NCBI RefSeq assembly: GCF_000011005.1
Contig: NC_013665.1
Span: 1,651,501 to 1,715,500 of the forward strand
DNA: 64,000 nt
Source: Methanocella paludicola SANAE
Lineage (GTDB): Archaea > Halobacteriota > Methanocellia > Methanocellales > Methanocellaceae
Reading direction: 5' to 3'
Position 1 is the first letter of the stretch, and the number at the start of each line of letters is the position of its first letter. Below the pieces are notes generated by a model. It searched no databases. It was not told the DNA's origin and worked only from the letters and a program-made list of their open reading frames with translations. Of this stretch, positions 44,247 to 62,107 are shown piece by piece. The translations under genes and the position numbers were made by a program.

Positions 44247-44561
44247 TTAATGTTGTTGCATGTCCGTCTGGGACTTTCTCCAGGCGGACTCTAACTCCTC
44301 GATCTCATCGAAGTGTGATGGCAGCATAACGATGCCGTCGAGTTCCCGGAGGATCTTCATCGTGATCCACTCCAGGTGCCTGCTCACGATACGCTCCCTC
44401 ATCTCGACGTCCATGCTGTCGTCTATATGCATGTCAATGATGCGTTTTCTCAGGTTACGGCGGACTATGCGCGAGACTTCGTTGATGCTTTCGGCTTTCT
44501 TGAACTCATCGGAATCTACGACGATGCGGATCAATTCCGTGTCGCTTGCAGTCATTACCAT
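44247..44561 (-). CDS. Uncharacterised small helical protein
   Basis: 104 residues, Arg/Glu-rich, predicted mostly helical (EVSRIVRRNLRKRIIDMHI, RERIVSRHLEWITMKI). No signal peptide or known motif. Convergent with S6e with a gap of only 7 bp, and the last gene before the secreted-protein array. I do not recognise a family. Confidence 0.6.
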   Translation of the reverse strand: MVMTASDTELIRIVVDSDEFKKAESINEVSRIVRRNLRKRIIDMHIDDSMDVEMRERIVSRHLEWITMKILRELDGIVMLPSHFDEIEELESAWRKSQTDMQQH

Positions 44562-44763
44562 CCACCTCCCATTTTATCGACATTCAGCCCACTGGATTAT
44601 CTATATATAATGATTTATCATCAATAAATCGTAATAAACTCTCCGGTCCACTGCTAATCACGTTCGTGACAATGCCGGCAGTATGTAAGTTCATCCACCT
44701 CAAACGCCGCTTATGTATTTATTTTCGCATGTCCGACATGAGTATGTGTGAGGAGGGTATTTG

Positions 44764-45078
44764 TTGAGGAGTATTCACGCTATTTTGATCATGGCCGCCT
44801 GCCTGGCCGCCATGATGCCTGCTTCGGCCGGCCTGGCCGGGCTTCAGTTCGGCTTCCCGGTACTGGTCCAGTCAGGGCAGTCCGTATCATATAGTAACGA
44901 TATTGCCACGATGACGGACCTGGAGTCGATCAATATCGACTTTCCCATGTTCGACGGCCTGATGTCCGGCACGCCATCGGCCGGGGTAATGGATACCGGC
45001 CTGGCGATGGGCCCCATGATAACGGACATGAGCGCCATGGGCAGCCTTTTTGACTTCTCACGGTTCAAGCTTCATTAA
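44764..45078 (+). CDS. Array protein 1: secreted SFGFP-type protein, short
   Basis: 104 residues. A signal peptide ends at about PASAG, then LAGLQFGFPVLVQSG opens the module that defines the array, followed by DLESINIDFPMFDG. The C-terminal tail is missing and the protein ends DFSRFKLH, so it is shorter than its relatives. The start is read as TTG at 44764, because the GGAGGG at 44752-44757 then sits six bases away as in the paralogues; a TTG one codon earlier is less likely. Confidence 0.75.
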   Translation: MRSIHAILIMAACLAAMMPASAGLAGLQFGFPVLVQSGQSVSYSNDIATMTDLESINIDFPMFDGLMSGTPSAGVMDTGLAMGPMITDMSAMGSLFDFSRFKLH

Positions 45079-45187
45079 TACTATTCTTTTCTTTTTATAT
45101 GCTCCATCTATCAGGGGCTAAGCCATATTAACAAACACTATCTGCATAAATACCAAATAAATCGTACAATATTCGTTTTTTTATATA

Positions 45188-45200
45188 CTAATATTTTAAT
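45188..45200 (+). promoter_or_regulatory. Array promoter box of protein 2
   Basis: CTAATATTTTAAT, ending 45 bp before the ATG at 45245. Boxes at the same distance precede proteins 3 and 4 (45837-45848, 46503-46514), and the sequence between box and start is shared. Confidence 0.6.
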
Positions 45201-45244
45201 TGAAGCTTACTATAGTTACTATTAACAATTGAGGAGGGTAGTTT

Positions 45245-45685
45245 ATGAGTAAGGTTATGAAAGGACTTCTGCTTGTGCTGGCCATCGCTCTCATCGCGGT
45301 GCCTGCATCTGCGAACCTTGTGGCGACCTCGTTCGGTTTCCCGGTGATCGTGCAGAGCGGCACGACCAGCGCCTTCAACCAGGACACTGCGTTCGCATCC
45401 GACTTCGAGACACTGGACATCGATTTCCCCGTCTTTACGGATGGTGCAGAGCTCGGCGCTACTGTCGGTACGGCCGCTGTTGACGGCGTCTCTCTGGTCG
45501 GCTCAGCCAACGTGCTGCCTTTTGGCCCGGTGAACCTGGCGTTCCCGTCCATTAGCCAGACGGTGGAGCAGACCCAGGAAGTCACGCACACCGACTTCGC
45601 GCAGACCAACGAGTTCGCTGAGTTCGCGTATCCGTTCGTCGGCGTTGGCGCAGTCGCGCTGCCCGGATTCGGCTTCGGCTGGTAA
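45245..45685 (+). CDS. Array protein 2: secreted SFGFP-type protein
   Basis: 146 residues. Signal peptide 1-24 (MSKVMKGLLLVLAIALIAV, cleavage after PASA). The mature part starts NLVATSFGFPVIVQSGTTSA, then a DFETLDIDFPVF strand, a variable centre (about 63-86), and a Gln/Thr-rich region (SQTVEQTQEVTHTDFAQT) before AYPFVGVGAVALPGFGFGW. No cysteine, no membrane anchor. GAGGAGGG precedes the start. The gene has its own terminator. Close paralogues follow at 45893, 46559 and 47243. Function unknown; secreted. Confidence 0.88.
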   Translation: MSKVMKGLLLVLAIALIAVPASANLVATSFGFPVIVQSGTTSAFNQDTAFASDFETLDIDFPVFTDGAELGATVGTAAVDGVSLVGSANVLPFGPVNLAFPSISQTVEQTQEVTHTDFAQTNEFAEFAYPFVGVGAVALPGFGFGW

Positions 45686-45713
45686 ACGAAGGTATAATTG
45701 CTGAAAATTCGAT

Positions 45714-45747
45714 GGTAGGAGATTTAAGCTCCTGCCGGTCTTTTTTT
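45714..45747 (+). terminator. Terminator of array protein 2 gene
   Basis: GGTAGGAG (45714-45721) and CTCCTGCC (45729-45736) pair around a 7-nt loop and are followed by seven T. Confidence 0.75.
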
Positions 45748-45836
45748 ATTAGTATTGCTTTATAAAGTCCTGGGTGATAACTGCTCATTCCGTGTTTAGA
45801 CGATTAATAATCAATAATATTTGCTTTTTAATATAA

Positions 45837-45848
45837 TAATATTTTAAT
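45837..45848 (+). promoter_or_regulatory. Array promoter box of protein 3
   Basis: TAATATTTTAAT, ending 45 bp before the ATG at 45893, the same distance as for proteins 2 and 4. Confidence 0.6.
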
Positions 45849-45892
45849 CAACGCTTATGATAAGTACTATTAGTAATTGAGGAGGGTAGTTT

Positions 45893-46333
45893 ATGAGTAA
45901 GGTTATGAAAGGACTTCTACTTGTGCTGGCCATCGCTCTCATCGCGGTGCCTGCATCTGCGAACCTTGTGGCGACCTCGTTCGGTTTCCCGGTGATCGTG
46001 CAGAGCGGCACGACCAGCGCCTTCAACCAGGACACTGCGTTCGCATCCGACTTCGAGACGTTAGATATCGACTTCCCCGTATTCGGGGATGGCTTTGAGC
46101 TCGGCGCGACCGCCGGCGTCGTTGCTGCAGACGGCGTGGCACTCACTGGCACTGCTAATGTGCTGCCTTTTGGCCCGGTGAACCTGGCGTTCCCGTCCAT
46201 TAGCCAGACGGTAGAGCAGACCCAGGAAGTCACGCACACCGACTTCGCGCAGACCAATGAGCAGGCAGAGTTCGCGTATCCGTTCGTCGGAGTAGGGCCT
46301 GTCGCGCTGCCCGGATTCGGCTTCGGCTGGTAA
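45893..46333 (+). CDS. Array protein 3: secreted SFGFP-type protein
   Basis: 146 residues, near-identical to protein 2 in the first ~60 and last ~60 residues. The centre differs (FGDGFELGATAGVVAADGVA). Signal peptide, SFGFPVIVQSG start and GFGFGW end are conserved. The DNA of the conserved ends is almost unchanged while the centre is diverged, a mosaic suggesting gene conversion. A terminator follows at 46362. Confidence 0.88.
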   Translation: MSKVMKGLLLVLAIALIAVPASANLVATSFGFPVIVQSGTTSAFNQDTAFASDFETLDIDFPVFGDGFELGATAGVVAADGVALTGTANVLPFGPVNLAFPSISQTVEQTQEVTHTDFAQTNEQAEFAYPFVGVGPVALPGFGFGW

Positions 46334-46361
46334 ACGAAGGAATAAGTAACTAAAACTTTAT

Positions 46362-46395
46362 GGTGGGAGATAAAACTCCTACCAATCCCTTTTTA
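46362..46395 (+). terminator. Terminator of array protein 3 gene
   Basis: GGTGGGAG (46362-46369) and CTCCTACC (46376-46383) pair around ATAAAA, followed by a T-rich run. Sequence differs from the neighbouring terminator but the design is the same. Confidence 0.72.
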
Positions 46396-46502
46396 TCATG
46401 ATCATTTTAGCGATTTATTTTGCCCTATAATAACTTTGGCGATTACGGCTCATGTCCGTGTTTAGACGGTTAATACTCAAAAATATCTGCTACAATTTAT
46501 AA

Positions 46503-46514
46503 TAATATTTTAAT
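46503..46514 (+). promoter_or_regulatory. Array promoter box of protein 4
   Basis: TAATATTTTAAT, ending 45 bp before the ATG at 46559. Confidence 0.6.
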
Positions 46515-46558
46515 TGAGGCTTGTGATAAGTACTATTAGTAATTGAGGAGGGTAATTT

Positions 46559-47002
46559 ATGAGTAAGGTGATAAAGGGACTTCTGCTTGTGCTAGCCATC
46601 GCGATGATCGCGGTGCCCGCATCTGCGAACCTTGTGGCGACCTCGTTCGGTTTCCCGGTGATCGTGCAGAGTGGCACGACCAGCGCCTTCAACCAGGACA
46701 CTGCGTTCGCGACCGACTTCGAGACGGTGGACATCAATTTCCCGGTCTTCCAGGACGGAACTGTATTTGGGCCGACTGACGGGACTATTGGTACCGTCGA
46801 TCCTATCGCTCTGGATGGCACGGCCAACGTGCTGCCTTTTGGCCCGGTGAACCTGGCGTTCCCGTCCATTAGCCAGACGGTGGAGCAGACCCAGGAAGTC
46901 ACGCACACCGACTTCGCGCAGACCAACGAGTTCGCTGAGTTCGCGTATCCGTTCGTCGGTGTCGGCGGATGTGCTCTTCCGGGATTCGGCTTCGGCTGGT
47001 AA
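46559..47002 (+). CDS. Array protein 4: secreted SFGFP-type protein
   Basis: 147 residues. Same architecture as proteins 2 and 3 but one residue longer in the divergent centre (QDGTVFGPTDGTIGTVDP). It has a single cysteine near the C-terminus (VGGCALPGFGFGW), unlike the close paralogues. Signal peptide and GAGGAGGG present. Confidence 0.88.
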   Translation: MSKVIKGLLLVLAIAMIAVPASANLVATSFGFPVIVQSGTTSAFNQDTAFATDFETVDINFPVFQDGTVFGPTDGTIGTVDPIALDGTANVLPFGPVNLAFPSISQTVEQTQEVTHTDFAQTNEFAEFAYPFVGVGGCALPGFGFGW

Positions 47003-47032
47003 GGTAGAAGAGTGTCCTACGACTAAGCAGTG

Positions 47033-47070
47033 GCAGGAGCGAGCCTCCTGCATGACTTTTTTATTTTTTT
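47033..47070 (+). terminator. Terminator of array protein 4 gene
   Basis: GCAGGAG (47033-47039) and CTCCTGC (47045-47051) pair around CGAGC, followed by T-rich sequence. Confidence 0.72.
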
Positions 47071-47242
47071 CTCCGATTATTCTAACGCATGCCGAAAAAC
47101 AATTCGCATCGTCGGATAAGCCTCAAAACTGGTATCCTCCTGTGTTTATCCGATAAAAATTAAGTAATAATCGCATAATATTATAATAATGGCTAAATCG
47201 GTGGTATCGATATCTCCTTTTAGTAATTGAGGAGGGTAGTTT

Positions 47243-47683
47243 ATGAGTAAGGTTATGAAAGGACTGTTACTTTTGCTGGCAATTGCCATGGTAACGATGC
47301 CCGTATCTGCGAACCTTGTGGCGACCTCGTTCGGTTTCCCGGTGATCGTGCAGAGCGGCACGACCAGCGCCTTCAACCAGGACACTGCGTTCGCGTCGGA
47401 CTTCGAGACATTAGACATTAATTTCCCGCCCTTTGTCGGGGACACTGTACTCGGGCCACTGGTCGGAACGGCTGCTGTCGATGGAGTATCTGTGACTGGT
47501 ACCGCTAATGTGCTGCCTTTTGGCCCGGTGAACCTGGCGTTCCCGTCCATTAGCCAGACGGTCGAGCAGACGCAGGAAGTCACGCACACCGACTTTGCGC
47601 AGACCAACGAGCAGGCAGAGTTCGCTTATCCGTTCGTCGGAGTAGGGCCTGTCGCGCTGCCCGGATTCGGCTTCGGCTGGTAA
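47243..47683 (+). CDS. Array protein 5: secreted SFGFP-type protein
   Basis: 146 residues, fourth of the close paralogues. Conserved ends, divergent centre (VGDTVLGPLVGTAAVDGVS). The promoter flank differs: the 12 bp before AATTGAGGAGGG is kept but the AT box lies farther up (about 47177-47191). A GGCAGG-type hairpin follows at about 47692-47715. Signal peptide 1-24. Confidence 0.87.
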   Translation: MSKVMKGLLLLLAIAMVTMPVSANLVATSFGFPVIVQSGTTSAFNQDTAFASDFETLDINFPPFVGDTVLGPLVGTAAVDGVSVTGTANVLPFGPVNLAFPSISQTVEQTQEVTHTDFAQTNEQAEFAYPFVGVGPVALPGFGFGW

Positions 47684-47691
47684 GGTGAGTA

Positions 47692-47727
47692 GGCAGGAGG
47701 ACAGACTCCCCTGCCGTATTTTATTTA
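47692..47727 (+). terminator. Terminator of array protein 5 gene
   Basis: GGCAGGAGG (47692-47700) and CTCCCCTGCC (47706-47715) pair with one bulge, followed by a T-rich run. Confidence 0.65.
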
Positions 47728-47833
47728 AAGGCTCAAGTGACTTTTTTTATTTTTTACCCTACGGTTATTCGTGATTTAACCGGCAAATGCTTTAATCGCC
47801 ACATGTCGTACTGTTGACCGAGGAGGAGGGTAT

Positions 47834-48214
47834 ATGAAAAGACTGAGCTGTCTCTTTATACTAATTGCGTTACTCGGGATGGCAGTCCCGTCGGGCGCGG
47901 CATTAGCGCCGACATCGTTCGGGTTCCCTACGATGTTCCACAATGCGGGCACGACCGTTTTTAACCAGGCTGTCAGCAACGCCTGGGACCTGGAAAGCCT
48001 GGACCTTTCCCCGTTCGGCACCAGCACTTTCGGCTTCCCCGCGGTTAGCCAGAGCGGCGTCCAGGGCCAGGCCATAATGGCGACCGAGTTCGCGCAGACC
48101 ACTGAGATCACTTCGTTCTCGTATCCCGCCATCACGACCACCGGCATCAACGGCTTTGGCGACTTCAACGGCTTTGGCGGCTTCGGCGACATCGACGGCT
48201 TCAACTGGCTTTGA
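47834..48214 (+). CDS. Array protein 6: secreted SFGFP-type protein with Gly/Phe tail
   Basis: 126 residues. Signal peptide to about residue 22, then LAPTSFGFPTMFHNAGTTVF, the FPAVSQSGVQGQAIMATEF region and SYPAITTTG. The tail GFGDFNGFGGFGDIDGFNWL replaces the usual end. GGAGGAGGG precedes the ATG. It links the SFGFP set to the Gly/Phe-rich members of the array. Confidence 0.85.
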   Translation: MKRLSCLFILIALLGMAVPSGAALAPTSFGFPTMFHNAGTTVFNQAVSNAWDLESLDLSPFGTSTFGFPAVSQSGVQGQAIMATEFAQTTEITSFSYPAITTTGINGFGDFNGFGGFGDIDGFNWL

Positions 48215-48354
48215 CTTTCTATTTTTTTCGCCCGGATTTAAACCGTTAATACCGCTTTTATTTGGTTTTGTACATCGATAGTTTGCTTTTCTTCGAGCCA
48301 ATTCTTTAGTCAATACATGCCAACATGTTCACTGGTAAAAGGAGGGTGGATATT

Positions 48355-48732
48355 TTGAAGAAGGCATTATTTGCCATAATGGCTTTATCAGCCATCTTAA
48401 TAGTCGCGGCTGCCATTTTCGTGCCCGCGAGCGCACAGCTCACGTCCACGTCGTTCGGCTTTCCCGTGATCGTACAGAGCAGCGATACCGTAGCTTTCCA
48501 GCAGTATACGGCTGACGCGTTAGACTACGAGGACGTCAGCATAGACTTCCCGGTGGCTGGCTGTGGCCTGCCCTTCGGGGCCGTGAGCCTGGCGTTCCCC
48601 AGCATACACCAGACATCGCTGCAGACGCAGTCCATAACGCAGACCAGCTTCGCGCAGACCAGCGAGTTCGCCGAGTTCGCTTACCCGTTCGTCGGAGTGG
48701 GCAGCCTCGGGCTCCCGGGCTTCTGCTTCTAG
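48355..48732 (+). CDS. Array protein 7: secreted SFGFP-type protein
   Basis: 125 residues from TTG at 48355, chosen because GGAGGG (48341-48346) lies eight bases upstream; an in-frame ATG at 48325 would place that ribosome site inside the gene. Signal peptide to about PASAQ, then LTSTSFGFPVIVQSSDTVAF, FPSIHQTSLQTQSITQTSFAQ and EFAYPFVGVGSLGLPGFCF. Two cysteines, one in AGCGLP and one in the last GFCF. Confidence 0.83.
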   Translation: MKKALFAIMALSAILIVAAAIFVPASAQLTSTSFGFPVIVQSSDTVAFQQYTADALDYEDVSIDFPVAGCGLPFGAVSLAFPSIHQTSLQTQSITQTSFAQTSEFAEFAYPFVGVGSLGLPGFCF

Positions 48733-48762
48733 GTGGCGGCGAAGGCCGTCACCGCTTTTTTA
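48732..48762 (+). terminator. Terminator of array protein 7 gene
   Basis: GGTGGCGGC (48732-48740) and GCCGTCACC (48745-48753) pair around GAAG directly after the stop, followed by six T. Confidence 0.75.
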
Positions 48763-48886
48763 CCGGCCGCGACCGCACTGCGTTTAATAGTTCACACTTC
48801 CTGGTAAGCTGTTTTATTATACACGAATATTTTAGATGACGCTCATAATAGATTCCCAATGGTAGTCAAAGGGGATGGTTAGAACT

Positions 48887-49249
48887 ATGAGAAAAGCAAT
48901 AGCGGGAGCATTGTTCGTGCTTGCCCTGGCCCTGGCCTCTGGATTATTCCTGGCTTCGCTGGCCACGGCGGCGTCCGGGCAGTTCTCCCCGATGTCTTTC
49001 GGCTTTCCGAACGTAGTGCATTCGCTGACGAGTACTTCCTGGGTACGGGATACGGCCGATATGTTCGACTTCGAGGACGCCTCGATCGTACCGACCGGGG
49101 GATACTTCCCGGCGATCCATCAGACGTCGATACACACGAGGTCGCTGAGCCATACCGAGTATTCGCATACGTCGGAGTTCACTTCCATCGGGTATCCGTA
49201 TGTATCAGCGGGGCCCGGCCCGTACGGCGGTTTTGCCTGCGGATACTAG
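48887..49249 (+). CDS. Array protein 8: secreted SFGFP-type protein, His/Ser-rich
   Basis: 120 residues from the ATG at 48887; an ATG at 48875 is in frame but lies within the ribosome-site region. Signal peptide, then FSPMSFGFPNVVHSLTSTSW, FPAIHQTSIHTRSLSHTEYS and GYPYVSAGPGPYGGF. The Gln/Thr pattern of the close paralogues is kept but with His/Ser. A CGAATATTTTAGAT box lies 50 bp upstream. Confidence 0.83.
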   Translation: MRKAIAGALFVLALALASGLFLASLATAASGQFSPMSFGFPNVVHSLTSTSWVRDTADMFDFEDASIVPTGGYFPAIHQTSIHTRSLSHTEYSHTSEFTSIGYPYVSAGPGPYGGFACGY

Positions 49250-49374
49250 GGGAGCCGAAATAAGAGGGTAATGGGGGGCCGTGGTAGAACGCCATGGTCT
49301 CCCCGGCCTTTATTAATAACCGTTAAGACTGCATTTATTTCCATAATAAAGCCAAATTATCGTTAATAATTATA

Positions 49375-49387
49375 CTAATATATTAAT
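49375..49387 (+). promoter_or_regulatory. Array promoter box of protein 9
   Basis: CTAATATATTAAT, 50 bp before the ATG at 49437, with GATGCTTTATGATAGATAC after it matching the flank of proteins 2-4. Confidence 0.6.
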
Positions 49388-49436
49388 CGATGCTTTATGA
49401 TAGATACACTTAGCAATGAGGAGGGTAGTCATTATC

Positions 49437-49799
49437 ATGAATAAACTGGCAGTGGTACTTATTATTGCGGCGGCCGTCACTCTTCTGGCGCTGCCGGCTT
49501 ATGCGTCCCTTGTACCCATGTCCTGGGGGTTCCCCACTATGGTCCAGAATAATTCGCTGACCAATTTCGAGAGCAACTTCGCATGGGCCAGCAATAACGA
49601 GTTCTCCGACATATCGTTCCCGACGTCGACGTGTTCGGGCTTAAGCGCGTTCAGCGCATTCCCGACGATCACGCAGATGTCGAACTCCGAGCAGCTGGTC
49701 TCGCAGGTCAAGTTCTCGAACCAGCAGCAGAGCATGTCGTTCTCATATCCGTGGATCAGCATCGGGTTTTCGCCTGTGCCTTCTATGGGTTTCCTCTGA
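49437..49799 (+). CDS. Array protein 9: secreted SWGFP-type protein
   Basis: 120 residues. Signal peptide to about residue 23 (LPAYAS), then LVPMSWGFPTMVQNNSLTNF, FPTITQMSNSEQLVSQVKF and FSYPWISIGFSPVPSMGFL. The Phe of SFGFP is Trp here. GGAGGG lies 11 bp before the chosen ATG; an earlier in-frame ATG at 49416 would put that site inside the gene. Confidence 0.84.
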   Translation: MNKLAVVLIIAAAVTLLALPAYASLVPMSWGFPTMVQNNSLTNFESNFAWASNNEFSDISFPTSTCSGLSAFSAFPTITQMSNSEQLVSQVKFSNQQQSMSFSYPWISIGFSPVPSMGFL

Positions 49800-49866
49800 G
49801 CAAGAGGCATCTTTTTTTATTGTATTTTTCACCGTTCACTGGCCGATTATTCGTTATTATAAATGC

Positions 49867-49878
49867 CAATATATTAAT
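49867..49878 (+). promoter_or_regulatory. Array promoter box of protein 10
   Basis: CAATATATTAAT, ending 42 bp before the ATG at 49920. Confidence 0.55.
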
Positions 49879-49919
49879 CAAGGGCGGGGATATCCGTTAT
49901 TGAGAGGAGGGTAGTTCAT

Positions 49920-50285
49920 ATGATGAAAAAGTTAGCCTTATTTGTAATTGTCTTACTGGCGGCTGCTACGATCGTAGTGCCGGCTAGCGCTGGACTGGTG
50001 CCCATGTCCTGGGGATTCCCCGTGTTGATCCAGAACGCGTCATTGACCGGCCTGCAGTCACAGACGGCCACGGCACACGACATCGAGTCGGCCGCGATCG
50101 ATTTCGGAGGCGGCGGCTTCGGTGGTAGCATATTCGGGGGGGCGTTCCCGTCCATCGCGCAGTTCGCCGACCAGGGCCAGTCGCTTACCAGCCTGGGTTT
50201 CGCCAGCCAGAACCAGAACATGATCTTCGCGTACCCGTTCATAAGCATCGGCGGCTCTCCGATACCGGGCATGGGCTTCTTCTGA
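49920..50285 (+). CDS. Array protein 10: secreted SWGFP-type protein with Gly insert
   Basis: 121 residues. Signal peptide to about PASAG, LVPMSWGFPVLIQNASLTGL, a Gly-rich stretch (DFGGGGFGGSIFGGAFPSIA), QNQNMIFAYPFISIGGSPIP and final GMGFF. It combines the SWGFP module with a Gly/Phe segment. GAGGAGGG precedes the start; either of the two adjacent ATG codons could be used. Confidence 0.84.
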   Translation: MMKKLALFVIVLLAAATIVVPASAGLVPMSWGFPVLIQNASLTGLQSQTATAHDIESAAIDFGGGGFGGSIFGGAFPSIAQFADQGQSLTSLGFASQNQNMIFAYPFISIGGSPIPGMGFF

Positions 50286-50431
50286 GCCCATCCCCGCTCT
50301 ATTTATTAAGGGGGCGACGGATAAAAGTCCAGGCGACGCCACTTGGTTTTTAAAAACGTACCATCGGGCTGAAATGGCAAAAACCTCGAAAAAAATCCTC
50401 TGAAAAGGGTAGAGTTTCGTTTTTATAAACG

Positions 50432-50444
50432 CTAATATATTTAT
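50432..50444 (+). promoter_or_regulatory. Array promoter box of protein 11
   Basis: CTAATATATTTAT, ending 43 bp before the ATG at 50487. Confidence 0.55.
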
Positions 50445-50486
50445 TATCGTTTCCTTTAGATATGAGTGTCAAGTAGGGGGGATTGT

Positions 50487-51530
50487 ATGAGTATAAGAAA
50501 AATAGCCGTACTATCGATGCTGGTCGTTCTGCTCATTGCGTCCAGCGTATCGGCATCGGCTGCAGTTATCGGCGGTGGAGGTATCTCGGCCACCTCAGCG
50601 TCCACGTTCGCGGCGACATCTACCGGGTTTAGCTCATTCGGCGGCTTCGGCAGTGGCTTCGGCAGTGGCTTCGGCGCGTTCGGCGGCTTCGGCTTCCCGT
50701 TTAACTGTGGCTTTGTACCGTTTGGCGTGGGAGCGTTCCCATTCAACTGGGCGTTAGGCGGAGGATTCGGCCCATTCCCGTTATTCGGGTGGGGCAGGTT
50801 CAGTCCGGGATTCTTCGGAACCTGTGGAGGTAGTTTCCCATTCAGCCCGTGCTTCATGGGCGGATGTGGTTTAACCGGGCCTGCAGCGCTGCCCGCTATC
50901 GGCGCTAACGCGCCTCTCGGCGGCATTGCGAAGGGCATTGCGAAGGCGTCGGTGGACCAGGGTGTGCCGTTCATTCTCGGCTCGCCTCTGGGAGCTTCGC
51001 CGGTGCTGGGCTGGGATGTGTCTTCGTGGGCCTTCGGCCTGCAGAGCTGTGTCAGGAGCCTGCCTCTGTACTTTGGTGCACATGGCTTCGGGTTCCCGTT
51101 CACGCTGGGCAACTACAGGATCGGCATGATCCCGTCCTGTGGCCTGCCGTGCGGCATACCGGCTCCCGCATGTCTGCCTGCAGCGCTGCCCGCTATCGGC
51201 GCTAACGCGCCTCTCGGCGGCATTGCGAAGGGCATTGCGAAGGCGTCGGTGGACCAGGGTGTGCCGTTCATTCTCGGCTCGCCTCTGGGAGCTTCGCCGG
51301 TGCTGGGCTGGGATGTGTCTTCGTGGGCCTTCGGCCTGCAGAGCTGTGTCAGGAGCCTGCCTCTGTACTTTGGTGCACATGGCTTCGGGTTCCCGTTCAC
51401 GCTGGGCAACTACAGGATCGGCATGATCCCGTCCTGTGGCCTGCCGTGCGGCATACCGGCTCCCGCATGCCTGCCTGCAGCGCTGCCCGCTATCGGCGCT
51501 AACGCGCCTCTCGGCGGCATTGCGAAGTAA
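50487..51530 (+). CDS. Array protein 11: secreted Gly/Phe-rich protein with 99-residue tandem repeats
   Basis: 347 residues. Signal peptide 1-24, then a Gly/Phe-rich region (about 40-125, GFGSGFGSGFGAFGGFGF). From about residue 133 two copies of a 99-residue unit follow, then the first 17 residues of a third. Each unit starts AALPAIGANAPLGGIAKGIA and includes six cysteines or fewer (SCV, SCGLPCG, ACLP). The DNA units are 297 bp and differ by about one base. Start at 50487 follows a GGGGGG site. Secreted, no anchor; the function is unknown. Confidence 0.85.
   Translation: MSIRKIAVLSMLVVLLIASSVSASAAVIGGGGISATSASTFAATSTGFSSFGGFGSGFGSGFGAFGGFGFPFNCGFVPFGVGAFPFNWALGGGFGPFPLFGWGRFSPGFFGTCGGSFPFSPCFMGGCGLTGPAALPAIGANAPLGGIAKGIAKASVDQGVPFILGSPLGASPVLGWDVSSWAFGLQSCVRSLPLYFGAHGFGFPFTLGNYRIGMIPSCGLPCGIPAPACLPAALPAIGANAPLGGIAKGIAKASVDQGVPFILGSPLGASPVLGWDVSSWAFGLQSCVRSLPLYFGAHGFGFPFTLGNYRIGMIPSCGLPCGIPAPACLPAALPAIGANAPLGGIAK
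50881..51528 (+). repeat. 297-bp tandem repeats in array protein 11 gene
   Basis: Unit starts at 50881, 51178 and 51475, each beginning CTGCAGCGCTGCCCGC; the third is cut after about 54 bp at the stop codon. The first two units are nearly identical over the whole 297 bp, with one visible difference (CATGTCTGCC against CATGCCTGCC). Confidence 0.9.
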
Positions 51531-51568
51531 CTGAGCAAAGCGTACGATGGCAAGCGGAAGTAACGTAG

Positions 51569-51604
51569 AGGGGAACGGAAATTCCCCTATTTTTCTCTTT
51601 TTTT
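51569..51604 (+). terminator. Terminator of array protein 11 gene
   Basis: AGGGGAA (51569-51575) and TTCCCCT (51582-51588) pair around a 6-nt loop, followed by T-rich sequence including eight T. The remaining 190 bp to the next gene show only an AT-rich promoter flank. Confidence 0.75.
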
Positions 51605-51796
51605 TCGCCAAAACTTAAATCGCATGTTTCGTGACCCTTTCGGCAATCAGGAGCTAAATAGCACTCAGGGGCAGTAACACGACGCTATTAGCGCCGTTTT
51701 GCTATAATAAGCTGTAGAGCGATTGATTTTCTGCTTTTAACATTCACAAATGGTTTTTAATTCATTCGGTAATGTCACATATGTAGGGGGAATGAG

Positions 51797-52060
51797 ATGG
51801 ACTATAAGAAAGTAGCCATATTCGTTCTTCTCGTGCTGGCGGTCCTGCTGATCGCGCTGCCTGCTGCAGCCTGGTTCGGCGGGATGGGATTCGGCGGCTT
51901 CGGCTTTAGGGGCCTCGGCTTCGGCTTTAGGAGCTTTGGCTTCGGCGGCTTCCCGTTCTGGGGCGGCTTCGGCGGCTTCCCGTTCTGGGGCGGCCTCGGC
52001 GGCTGCGGCCTCGGATGGGGCGGCCTGGGCGGCTGTGGCCTGGGTGCCTGCGGCTGGTAA
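51797..52060 (+). CDS. Array protein 12: secreted Gly/Phe/Trp-rich small protein
   Basis: 87 residues. Signal peptide to about PAAAW, then almost pure Gly with Phe, Leu and Trp: GGFGFRGLGFGFRSFGFGG, two copies of GGFPFWGG, then GGCGLGWGGLGGCGLGACGW with three cysteines. The composition is silk-like or glycine-loop-like and predicts self-association. GGGGG lies 10 bp before the ATG. Confidence 0.82.
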   Translation: MDYKKVAIFVLLVLAVLLIALPAAAWFGGMGFGGFGFRGLGFGFRSFGFGGFPFWGGFGGFPFWGGLGGCGLGWGGLGGCGLGACGW

Positions 52061-52219
52061 GCTCAAGCGAATATGGGCTGCACGAGAACGATCGTATGAT
52101 TGCTAGTAGGCGTGGACAACGCCTACTACACTATTTATTTTTCAGCTTAAATTTCCGGGCAGGTGCGCCATTTCTATTATTTTACGCTTGCAGGGCCGAA
52201 TTATTCGCTTATTGTTTTA

Positions 52220-52235
52220 CTAATATATATTAAAT
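52220..52235 (+). promoter_or_regulatory. Array promoter box of protein 13
   Basis: CTAATATATATTAAAT, 42 bp before the ATG at 52277. Confidence 0.55.
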
Positions 52236-52276
52236 CGATAATGAAATCTGTACATATATCAGAGGAGGGTATATTT

Positions 52277-52744
52277 ATGGAAAAAAGGAGGGTACTGGCG
52301 CTTATCGCTGCCGCACTATTCATATTCTTCACGGTAGCCCCGGCAGGCGCCGATTTCATAGGCACGGGAGTCACTTTTGCAAAGGATTTCAGCGACAGCA
52401 TCAACGTGAACGTGGCCAAGATCGCGGGCCTTGATGATACCGCATTCGCCGGCGTCGGCACGTCTATCGGCGTGAGCTGGGATGTACCGGTGAATATTAA
52501 CGTTCTCGCAGGGTACCCGTACGGGTACGGCGGCGTAGGGGTCGTGACCACGGGCAATACGGGCTATGCGCTCGGCCTCAATATGGACATGGTCCAGACT
52601 TCAGGGTTCGACGGCTCCGACTTCGGAATACCGCTCGCGCAGCAGGGCACCACGTCGACGCACTTTGGCAAACTGTGGGCTGCCGAGAACCAGATCGATA
52701 ATACTCAGGCGTTCCTTCCCTTCTCGAGCTTCCCGGTATTATAA
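52277..52744 (+). CDS. Array protein 13: secreted protein, divergent
   Basis: 155 residues. The ATG at 52277 is chosen by GAGGAGGG seven bases upstream. Signal peptide to about PAGAD. The mature part lacks SFGFP but has alternating beta patterns (INVNVAKIAGLDD, SIGVSWDVPVNINVLAG) and a YPYGYGGVG segment. It shares promoter box and ribosome site with the rest. Function unknown. Confidence 0.8.
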   Translation: MEKRRVLALIAAALFIFFTVAPAGADFIGTGVTFAKDFSDSINVNVAKIAGLDDTAFAGVGTSIGVSWDVPVNINVLAGYPYGYGGVGVVTTGNTGYALGLNMDMVQTSGFDGSDFGIPLAQQGTTSTHFGKLWAAENQIDNTQAFLPFSSFPVL

Positions 52745-53048
52745 GGCCGCCGGATTCCTTTTTTTTATTGCCGGGCTGGCGCTCATTTTTTTAGCTTTAG
52801 CTTCGCTATTATAATTCCCGTTAGCGCAGATATAACTAGCCTATTATTTTACCCTTTAAGCAAATATGAGGCTATATTTTGCCCTGTTAAAAGTAATTGC
52901 CATTTATACAACCCATTTTAAACTATTAGCCATGATTAATACCCAGAATGCGTTAAAGAGCTTCAGAACGGTTACATTTCGTATTTTTATATACTAATTT
53001 ATTTATCTTGTCTTATTAGACATAAGTGTGCAGTTCGGAGGTGTAGTT
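52745..53048. other. Intergenic AT-rich region with promoter of protein 14
   Basis: GGCCGCCGG then eight T (about 52744-52765) likely ends the previous transcript. The rest is AT-rich. CTAATTTATTTAT at 52994-53006 matches the array promoter box, 43 bp before the ATG at 53049. No gene is seen. Confidence 0.5.
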
Positions 53049-53804
53049 ATGAAAATGGCAAGAACCCTAAGTGTAGCCATTCTTTGTATAGTGGCTACGT
53101 TGTTAGTAGCGGTACCCGCTTACGCACAATTTTGCGGGCCCGCACCCCTGGCCGGTGCCTGCGGGGCGCCTGTGGCATATGGGCCTCCCCAGGATTGTGT
53201 AGCACAAGTCTATTGCAACATTCCGGTCACTTCCCAGGTGCCCGTGACCGTGCCCGCAACCTCTGCGGTACAGGTCCCGATCACCGTGCCGGTGGCGGAC
53301 GTTTGTCCCGTGACGGTCCCGAGGGCAGTCGTAGTGCCCCAGACGATCCCGGTGCCCTTCGTCAGGCCGGCAGTGACCTCGACTACGGTCCCGGTCACGG
53401 TGCCCGTCTGCTCGAGCGTGCCCGTAACGTCCATGATCCCGCAGTGCTATACGGTACCGCTGGGATGTGGGGCAGGAATTCCGCCGGCCGTAGGAGCTAA
53501 CGCTCCGATCGGCGCGAACGCGCCCATCGGCGGCCTCAGCAAGGGCCTCGACAAGGGCCTCGGTGCCAACATGGGCATGGGCCTCGGCAAGGGCATCGGC
53601 GGCTACGGCATGGGCATGGGCGGCCTCGGCGGCTTCGGCTCGCCGTATGGAATGGGCGGCCTCGGCGGCTTCGGCTCGCCGTATGGAATGGGTGGAATCG
53701 GCGGCTTCGGCTCGCCCTATAGCGGCATGGGCATGGGCGGCCTCGGCGGCTTCGGTGGCATGAACCTCGGCGGCTACGGCGGCCTGGGCTCGATGATGAA
53801 ATAA
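53049..53804 (+). CDS. Secreted Pro/Val-rich and Gly/Met-rich protein in the array
   Basis: 251 residues from the ATG at 53049 (GGAGGTG upstream). Signal peptide to about AYAQ. Residues 50-135 are repeats of the type VPVTVP/VPITVP/TVPV. A short segment AVGANAPIGANAPIGGLSKG echoes the GANAPLGGIAKG of the repeat protein at 50487. The C-terminal ~90 residues repeat GMGGLGGFGSPY several times. It is very low in charge and likely structural. It shares the array-type box at 52994. Confidence 0.82.
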   Translation: MKMARTLSVAILCIVATLLVAVPAYAQFCGPAPLAGACGAPVAYGPPQDCVAQVYCNIPVTSQVPVTVPATSAVQVPITVPVADVCPVTVPRAVVVPQTIPVPFVRPAVTSTTVPVTVPVCSSVPVTSMIPQCYTVPLGCGAGIPPAVGANAPIGANAPIGGLSKGLDKGLGANMGMGLGKGIGGYGMGMGGLGGFGSPYGMGGLGGFGSPYGMGGIGGFGSPYSGMGMGGLGGFGGMNLGGYGGLGSMMK

Positions 53805-53985
53805 GCCCGCAGCATACATGCAAAAATAAAGGTTGGGAAAACTGGCATGTAAGCATAAGCGAACTGGGAAGCAGTGCCTTTCCAGTTCGTTAATATCATT
53901 AAAATAACCTTTTTTATCGTTTATTTGGCCGGTTATGTATTTATCGGGCCGGGACTACCTACTCTTAGAGTTGGGTGGGAGTTGT

Positions 53986-54615
53986 ATGGTGAGGTACAAC
54001 CTGTTCCCCGTTGTGGCCGTTATACTGCTATACTTTAGCTGTCCGTCCGCTCTTGCGGCGGACTCCGGCATCGGGGGTATCGGCCTGTATGGGTTTCCGA
54101 TGAATATCGTGCCCGTTGGCGCGGGGGCCGCGGCCACTGCCGGCCAGGGCTACACGTATAATAACATAGGCTATGAGCTGCCCGATTTTGCCAGCACTTA
54201 CGGCTTCACGGCCTTCGAGAGCTCTCCCATACTTACAGGCACCACCGGCTATTTCGGGCCCGACCTGGGCGGCATCGACCTGGGCGTTTCGTTCGGCCTG
54301 ACCCAGGCCGACCACGACGCCTCAAAGACAGCCTTCTCAAAGGACCTCATGTACCAGGCCGACCTTGAAAATACTTTTATCGCCTTCCCCGGCATCGGCG
54401 TCGGCTCGCTCGGTGTCCTGTTCCCCACGATCAGCAATGAAAAGTCCAGCATCAAGTATGCCGAGAGCATTAAGTTCGAGTTCACCACGGAGAGCGATAA
54501 GTTCCAGATGGCGGGCTTCGGGTACCCGCTGGGCCTGGGCCTCGGGTATACCTCGGCCACCGTGGCGAGCAGTCCCGGCGCCAGCCTGGTTAACTCGCCA
54601 TACTACTTCGCCTAA
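53986..54615 (+). CDS. Secreted protein, last gene of the array region
   Basis: 209 residues from the ATG at 53986; an earlier in-frame ATG at 53935 has no ribosome site, while GTGGGAG precedes this one. Signal peptide to about ALAAD. The mature protein alternates Gly with aromatic residues (GIGGIGLYGFPMN, GVGSLGVLFPTISNEKS, MAGFGYPLGLGLGY), including the GFP and FPTIS patterns of the array. No anchor. A long palindrome follows. Confidence 0.8.
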   Translation: MVRYNLFPVVAVILLYFSCPSALAADSGIGGIGLYGFPMNIVPVGAGAAATAGQGYTYNNIGYELPDFASTYGFTAFESSPILTGTTGYFGPDLGGIDLGVSFGLTQADHDASKTAFSKDLMYQADLENTFIAFPGIGVGSLGVLFPTISNEKSSIKYAESIKFEFTTESDKFQMAGFGYPLGLGLGYTSATVASSPGASLVNSPYYFA

Positions 54616-60054: not shown

Positions 60055-60735
60055 TCATTCGCTTTTTTCGATCAGGTCCTCTTCGGTGAACGTCTCTTTA
60101 TACGTTACCGTCTTATAGCCCGCGAAGCTCGTCAGGAACCTGGCGATGAGCACCTTGCCCAGCGTCCATTCCTCGCTCAGGAAATATCCCTTGGGCACGT
60201 CGATCGTGATATTGTCACCATCGACCTCGTACTTTGCCTCTGGGCCGATATAGCCATGAACGATGGCGTCCGTCTTCTCGCCCTTATCCTCGAGTACGTC
60301 CTCGATCTTGTATTCATAGGTCAGCGTCTTGCCGGCCAGCGGCTCGTTGTAGTCGACCTTGACCCTTCCCCCGCTGACGCTCTCGACGACGCCGATGCGT
60401 CCCTCGGACTCGATCCACACGCCGGGCTCGGGCTTCTTATCGAACTTCTTCACGGAGACCGTCTCGATGAGCTCCAGGCTCCTGAATCCATAACCCTTCT
60501 CCGGCGGCACCGCTACTGTGCCCTTGTAGCCCTTCTTTTTGCCCATCAGGTCCTCTTCGAAGCCCTCGACGAGGGAGTTCGAGCCCACTACGATGGTCAT
60601 CGGCTCGTATGTGCGCTTCTCGTCGTATATGTTGTTCTCCTTTGCCACATCTGCATCCGTCGTGTCGAACACTGAGCCATTGTCGAGCTTTCCAGTGAAC
60701 GATAGCTTGATGATATCGCCTTTTGTGATTGCCAT
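60055..60735 (-). CDS. FKBP-type peptidyl-prolyl isomerase, long archaeal form
   Basis: 226 residues. The FKBP core is at about 1-155 (KGDIIKLSFTGKLDNGSVFDTT, VPPEKGYGFRSLE) with an inserted flap-like domain around 85-130, and a C-terminal extension. It speeds proline isomerisation and can act as a chaperone. The ATG at 60735 is preferred over the GTG three codons upstream. A close paralogue lies at 61397. A HicB/HicA pair lies between them. Confidence 0.88.
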   Translation of the reverse strand: MAITKGDIIKLSFTGKLDNGSVFDTTDADVAKENNIYDEKRTYEPMTIVVGSNSLVEGFEEDLMGKKKGYKGTVAVPPEKGYGFRSLELIETVSVKKFDKKPEPGVWIESEGRIGVVESVSGGRVKVDYNEPLAGKTLTYEYKIEDVLEDKGEKTDAIVHGYIGPEAKYEVDGDNITIDVPKGYFLSEEWTLGKVLIARFLTSFAGYKTVTYKETFTEEDLIEKSE

Positions 60736-60859
60736 AAGATCCACTCTATTTTTTGTTTAGCTAATGGGATAGCTGTTCATCTGGATTAAGCTTCGTTATT
60801 ACACATAAACGTATTTATAGATAAAATAGTAATTACATATTGTTAAGTAGTAAACGCCG

Positions 60860-61396: not shown

Positions 61397-62107
61397 TTAC
61401 TCTTTCTTCTCTTCTTCAGCGGGGGCAGCTTCCTCGACCTTCGGAGCCTCAGGCTTCGTGTAGGTCTCCTGGAAGACGACTTCCTTAATATCTTCCTGCT
61501 CCATGATCTCGTTGGCGGCGACGCCCTTGGCGACGAGCCAGCGCTGGTTATACGAGAACTCCTTGGGGACCTCGACGATGACCTTGTCGCCCTCGGTCTT
61601 GTGCCCGACGTCCTGGCCGGTGTACATCTTCAGGATGGCGTCGACCTTGTTGTCGGTGCCTTCGATGAGCTCCTCGACGGTGTAATCGTAAGTGAGAGTC
61701 TCGCCCGCGAGGACCGGGTTAAAGTTAATGCGAACACGGCCGCCCGCGGTGCTCTCGACGACGCCGGTCCTTCCCTGGACCTGGACGCGCATGCCGGGCT
61801 TGACCTTTTCCTTGAACTTCTTGGCCGGGATGGTCTCGATGAGGTCGAGGCGCCTCATGCCGAAGCCCTTCTCGGGGGGCACTTCGACGTGGCCCTTCTC
61901 GCCGACGTCCTTGCCGATGATGTCCTCGTCCAGGCCGGCGACTACGTAGCCCTTGCCGACGATGATGGTCTCGGGGCTATAGTTCGCCTTTTCATTGTAT
62001 ATGCCGTTCTCCTTCGCGACGTTCGCGTCGGTCGTGTCGAACACGGCGCCGTTCTGGAGCTTGCCGGTGTATGAGAGCTTGATGAAATCTCCTTTCTGTA
62101 CTGCCAT
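61397..62107 (-). CDS. FKBP-type peptidyl-prolyl isomerase, long archaeal form
   Basis: 236 residues, paralogue of the protein at 60055 (KGDFIKLSYTGKLQNGAVFDTT, VPPEKGFGMRRLDLIE, PAGKF-type core). The C-terminus is Glu/Lys-rich (VEEAAPAEEEKKE). It is expected to isomerise prolines in folding proteins. Two such genes bracket the toxin pair, perhaps from an insertion (inference). Confidence 0.9.
   Translation of the reverse strand: MAVQKGDFIKLSYTGKLQNGAVFDTTDANVAKENGIYNEKANYSPETIIVGKGYVVAGLDEDIIGKDVGEKGHVEVPPEKGFGMRRLDLIETIPAKKFKEKVKPGMRVQVQGRTGVVESTAGGRVRINFNPVLAGETLTYDYTVEELIEGTDNKVDAILKMYTGQDVGHKTEGDKVIVEVPKEFSYNQRWLVAKGVAANEIMEQEDIKEVVFQETYTKPEAPKVEEAAPAEEEKKE

Follow-up and report, generated by a model that had tools for sequence, protein, structure and literature searches.

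A family-specific array of probably secreted proteins with a shared upstream element in Methanocella paludicola

Methanocellales are important producers of methane in rice fields, and the literature that we found records little of their outer surface. What, then, is made by a long row of genes in Methanocella paludicola SANAE whose products all carry apparent signal peptides and have no described relatives? The row lies in a window of 64,000 bp (bases 1651501-1715500 of the single 2,957,635-bp contig, the published genome size also being 2,957,635 bp; PMC3146512), where 15 consecutive plus-strand open reading frames (ORFs; g1-g15) span 44761-54615 with intergenic gaps of 102-283 bp. An earlier sequence-only reading had placed this array correctly and counted thirteen or more genes, a number that we correct to 15. 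We find a conserved, apparently co-regulated set of predicted secreted proteins, and the reading that we favor, with a probability of roughly 0.55, is that they would be the structural proteins of one system, forming an extracellular layer, fibre or matrix. The genes are as follows (window coordinates; g2-g10 identified by module alignment and profile).

44761..45078, +, g1, short A-type protein with the first module half only (TTG start at 44761 or 44764; profile E 5e-16)
45245..45685, +, g2, A-type SFGFP protein (predicted 23-aa signal peptide; mature part of 123 aa without Lys or Arg)
45893..46333, +, g3, A-type SFGFP protein
46559..47002, +, g4, A-type SFGFP protein
47243..47683, +, g5, A-type SFGFP protein
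47834..48214, +, g6, SFGFP module with a Gly/Phe-rich tail
48355..48732, +, g7, A-type module (ORF opens at 48325; the Shine-Dalgarno sequence AGGAGGG precedes a TTG at 48355)
48875..49249, +, g8, SFGFP module variant
49437..49799, +, g9, B-type SWGFP module
49920..50285, +, g10, B-type SWGFP module (modeled, like g2, as two ~26-residue strands)
50487..51530, +, g11, Gly/Phe/Pro-rich, probably secreted protein with Cys
50879..51472, +, two identical 297-bp tandem repeats within g11
51797..52060, +, g12, 87 aa, mature part 47% Gly and 29% aromatic (orthologues Gly/Trp-rich)
52277..52744, +, g13, conserved, probably secreted protein with a YPYGYGG motif
53049..53804, +, g14, Cys-containing N-terminus, VPVTVP-type repeat region and Gly-rich tail
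53986..54615, +, g15, conserved, probably secreted protein, remote module homologue

Gene order, kinds of protein and distribution

The order rpS6e, A-type copies, B-type copies, g11, g12, g13, g14 and g15 is kept in all four Methanocellaceae genomes compared, which represent three genera (M. paludicola, G009 with 3,179,916 bp, G019 and G029). Between them the A-type copies number from two upwards, the block holds ~8 to 15 genes, and g14 is the kind with the highest identity. When a profile of g2-g10 was searched across the phylum, strong matches came from 4 of 394 genomes, all of them Methanocellaceae, and the same restriction was found with g14 (394 genomes) and g13 (295 genomes). Three of the weak matches outside the family were inspected and lie in unrelated ORFs (e.g., metalloprotease-like or metal-regulator-like). 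Wider scans of genome contigs gave no match at first and then only Methanocella sp. PtaU1.Bin125, records near the window's genome having possibly been excluded, and viral contigs gave none. Among the genomes searched, the array is specific to Methanocellaceae.

Ten of the proteins (g1-g10, rather than the eight first proposed to share a core) have a common module, defined by SFGFP or SWGFP, FPxIxQ and a Y-P close to the end, with g1 holding its first half only. Profile E-values for the module reach 1e-60, the mature modules measure ~80-125 aa, the FP, Q, F and YP positions are invariant, and g3-g5 are 86-92% identical to g2. A remote homologue is g15 (profile E 1.3e-10), whose own profile returns two module proteins in other genomes, and g13 gave a single weak match to the module (41 columns, E 4e-4). 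The match of g14 is confined to its signal peptide, the module profile recovers only the signal peptide of g12 (E 0.02), and g11 is not recovered at all. We therefore reject the single graded family, from SFGFP modules to glycine-rich chains, that had been suggested: g11, g12 and g14 show no relation to the module, and the array comprises several distinct kinds of protein, for the most part with no similarity that could be detected between them. These three are separate kinds that have their expression signals in common with the module genes.

Searches of ten proteins against Pfam and ten against NCBIfam (g12 and g14 against the latter only) reached no family cut-off, and at E <= 1 no Pfam family, including the curlin and Fap repeats, matched g1, g2 or g6-g10. 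No enzyme or toxin family was found for the tested proteins in Pfam, NCBIfam and further searches, a soluble-enzyme profile match being the result named beforehand as refuting the idea of a matrix, and the best hit of a sequence search of the Protein Data Bank (PDB) had an E-value of 0.25.

All 15 proteins show a basic N-terminus, a hydrophobic core, an AxA-type end and no lipobox cysteine, as judged by eye rather than with a predictor. A second stretch resembling a transmembrane segment is not apparent (19-residue Kyte-Doolittle means in the mature parts reach at most 1.76), in agreement with the earlier statement that each protein has a signal peptide and none an anchor, and the proteins are thus probably secreted through the Sec pathway. 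Lys and Arg are absent from mature g2-g7 and g10, and together make up 0-2.5% of mature g1-g10 vs. a mean of 10.6% and a minimum of 4.0% in 42 other ORFs of the window. Since trypsin would give no usable peptides from these seven, the main components would escape ordinary trypsin proteomics, and their absence from such data would be a weak refutation of secretion. Cysteines number 0-2 in mature g1-g10 (none in g1, g2, g3, g5, g6 and g10), the Cys-containing kinds being g11 (12 Cys), g14 (8) and g12 (3).

An upstream element shared within and beyond the array

The regions upstream of the array genes share a bipartite element, TTCG-N13-TAATATATT, in which TAATATATT is the TATA-like part, and which mostly lies 53-61 nt ahead of the start codon. 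When 130 bp upstream were scored in the four genomes, 24 of 40 array genes vs. 0 of 195 control genes had a site with one mismatch or none, as did 0.2% of shuffled array upstreams. Most array genes apparently have a promoter of their own with this element, for which the sites in M. paludicola are:

45172..45197, +, element of g2, 1 mismatch
45820..45845, +, element of g3, 2 mismatches
46486..46511, +, element of g4, 3 mismatches
49359..49384, +, element of g9, 1 mismatch
49850..49875, +, element of g10, 1 mismatch
50416..50441, +, element of g11, perfect
52204..52229, +, element of g13, 1 mismatch
52978..53003, +, element of g14, 1 mismatch
53916..53941, +, element of g15, 3 mismatches

The pattern was composed after reading these same upstream regions, so the comparison with control genes is partly circular and sites off the array are a fairer test. 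Across the four genomes there are 18 perfect sites, 11 in the arrays and 7 elsewhere; four of the latter precede orthologues within one further conserved family of low-complexity, secreted-looking proteins, two precede paralogues of g14, and one (L101:1501-1526, in G029) has no evident downstream gene. The genes at the six sites, listed below, played no part in defining the pattern.

L071:1557-2081, L100:1009-1476(-), L102:1012-1476(-), L106:1918-2373(-): further low-complexity, probably secreted family, with a perfect element in all four genomes
L107:1710-2549, L108:1834-2490: two paralogues of g14 that have Val-Pro repeats (in L107 VTVPK/VTVPE), each preceded by a perfect element

Because six of the seven perfect off-array sites precede such genes, the array and these off-array genes look like a regulon, further parts of which the element can find by sequence search alone. 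One-mismatch sites off the array are mostly chance-like (18 in G009 vs. 10 for a reversed control pattern).

The module and what it may build

The two halves of the module align over 39 columns with a profile score of 32.7, vs. 9.0 +/- 1.9 (maximum 16.9) for 100 column shuffles, which shows that the module has arisen by internal duplication. When mature g2 and g10 were modeled, two strands of 26-27 residues came out in both (block pLDDT mostly 72-85), from which each half is predicted to be one ~26-residue beta-strand. The column entropy, which does not depend on the model coordinates, alternates with a period of two residues, and it does so through both halves and in phase (joint p 4e-4). In g2 the parts are:

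45344..45424, +, first half, predicted continuous beta-strand (mature residues 11-37)
45437..45508, +, inter-half loop, which diverges from copy to copy in g2-g5
45548..45628, +, second half, predicted continuous beta-strand (mature residues 79-105)

Pairwise, the halves of g2-g5 differ at 5-21 nucleotides and the 24-codon loop at 27-35 of 72. Such a mosaic could reflect either gene conversion in the halves or a diversifying pressure that acts on the loop.

This period-2 conservation over ~26 residues in both halves, together with the invariance of FP, Q, F and YP, points to an ordered strand architecture, and it is the reason why we consider it unlikely that the proteins are soluble or disordered protectants, or an adhesive mucus, secreted against drying or oxygen and forming no ordered polymer. 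Such a role would suit their low complexity, their strong content of Gly, Ser, Thr and Gln and the low global confidence of the models, as well as the occurrence of Methanocella in dry and oxic soils (PMC12904285).

That the proteins form no separate structure, and instead serve as accessory parts in an ordinary S-layer or a pseudo-periplasm or as adhesins between cells, seems to us quite unlikely. The M. paludicola genome does hold many dispersed module copies, in one of which (L061:4956-6296(-)) swapped module halves are followed by a Pro/Thr linker and a beta-propeller, presumably resembling those of archaeal surface proteins, and the absence of an anchor is compatible with binding to an S-layer; however, a dedicated promoter element and a conserved locus of several kinds suggest one bulk product, and no S-layer gene was recognized beside the array.

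In structure searches with Foldseek the matches were for the most part subunits that build rings or barrels from hairpins, as in pore-forming toxins, phage collars and the L/P and MS rings of flagella, and one entry of a viral structure library, unnamed, fell below 1e-3 (TM 0.41). We rejected the PDB matches as structural relatives (query-normalized TM 0.10-0.42, best E 5e-4), since they track the length of the hairpin, and we read them as the mark of a subunit needing neighbors, not as homology. That the modules are oligomeric beta-hairpin proteins forming a pore or ring in the membrane or an envelope layer, as the matches would favor, is improbable, given these scores, the lack of a pore-forming Pfam family (aerolysin-type pores included), the lack of the hydrophobic/polar alternation that a membrane barrel needs, and a co-regulation with Gly/Trp-rich and Val-Pro-repeat proteins that would be unexpected for a pore.

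An extracellular structural system is the most economical reading because of the conserved order, the shared element and the strand-forming, Lys/Arg-free module. In such a system, a regulator would act at the TTCG box, which precedes the TATA-like element by 13 nt, and drive each gene separately, and the proteins would be exported and their signal peptides cleaved. The A- and B-type modules (g1-g10 and, distantly, g15) would each supply two ~26-residue strands with no closed fold of their own, which may complete sheets with neighboring subunits to give a ribbon, fibre or layer beyond the membrane; Gly/aromatic-rich g11 and g12 and Val-Pro-repeat g14 may act as matrix or linker partners, and the divergent loops of the A-type copies may be displayed. 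Of the earlier suggestion of a secreted fibre, sheath or matrix, the structural role fits the synteny, the element, the Lys/Arg-free modules with their predicted long strands and the lack of an enzyme family, while assembly itself is something we infer.

Several points weigh against this reading. We found no expression, localization or microscopy data for the array genes, and no dedicated secretion or assembly gene was recognized in the array. The g2 and g10 models have pTM values of 0.24 and 0.27, from 13- and 11-row alignments, and amphipathicity was looked for in the strands without finding any alternation in hydrophobicity between their faces. In M. paludicola, g1, g5-g8 and g12 have no good promoter element. 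M. conradii is described as single rods with no mention of a sheath or envelope structure, which would count only if it carries the array. No paper that we found, among them the main text of the M. conradii transcriptome paper, links Methanocella to amyloid or describes the array genes.

Comparison with known systems, and dispersed relatives

Of the kinds described so far, the archaeal sheath comes nearest; it is compared here through published descriptions of its proteins (SH) in Methanospirillum, Methanothrix, ANME-1 and Thermofilales (PMC10593813, PMC11576556). These are likewise secreted, beta-rich and present as many paralogues per genome, and Methanothrix, Methanospirillum and ANME-1 are on record as carrying sheath-protein genes in clusters of near-identical copies (PMC11576556), as seen here for g2-g5 with their apparent signal peptides; arrays of secreted beta-proteins are therefore not unprecedented. 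The earlier statement that no described archaeal system has this layout stands for homology in the collections searched and fails for clustering. SH proteins assemble outside the cell, as the array proteins would on our reading. The SH core consists of two sheets of six antiparallel strands; our models, of low global confidence (pTM 0.24-0.27), show two 26-27-residue strands and no such core. The main Methanospirillum SH protein (40.6 kDa) contrasts with mature modules of ~80-125 aa. The sheath survey names Methanotrichales, Methanomicrobiales, Alkanophagales and Thermofilales, not Methanocellales, and finds nothing conserved in the surroundings of the SH genes, whereas the array is multi-kind, linked by its element and conserved in order. 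The Cys links between SH subunits have no counterpart in the modules, six of which lack Cys.

The modules resemble curli and Fap functional amyloids, whose secreted subunits are likewise small, repeat internally and have conserved positions occupied by Gln, Asn or Thr. The modules differ in having no curlin or Fap match in Pfam, for those tested, and a single duplication, and no dedicated secretion or nucleator gene was recognized beside the array. Eukaryotic silk- and cuticle-like Gly/aromatic and Val-Pro-repeat proteins resemble g11, g12 and g14 in composition only; no homology was found, and the array proteins are prokaryotic and family-specific.

It is tempting to go further, and we tentatively propose, at somewhat less than even odds, a multi-component extracellular layer of the Methanocellaceae's own, with a dedicated promoter element and an origin independent of archaeal sheaths and bacterial functional amyloids, in which subunits of two internally duplicated ~26-residue strands would be joined by Gly/Trp- and Val-Pro-repeat partners. 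The array is a concrete candidate for what lies outside Methanocellales cells, with, speculatively, a link to persistence in drained or dry soil, and polymerization, if true, would add one more to the origins of archaeal protein coats.

Among the dispersed relatives, three genomes have long forms of ~290-400 aa (E 6e-15), in which an extra region comes after the module core; the C-terminal part of this region is conserved from one long form to another:

L059:7499-8587(-), L059:8896-10107, L064:6367-7302, L057:6825-7784, L050:5701-6570(-), L050:6911-7783(-): long forms, 289-403 aa

At three dispersed loci (L062:6077-7193, L063:5875-6915 and L065:4781-6266) a short module form adjoins a convergent gene whose product, of 188-232 aa, looks secreted. 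The Gly/Trp-rich genes L066:3394-3627 and L067:3280-3513, both of 77 aa, are identical, as are their upstream regions, and the former adjoins transposase-like ORFs. Beside the array, a 104-aa ORF (44247-44561, minus strand) lies between rpS6e and g1 and has the same place in G009 and G029. Farther along the window, two similar FKBP-like genes stand close together on the minus strand (60055-60744 and 61397-62107).

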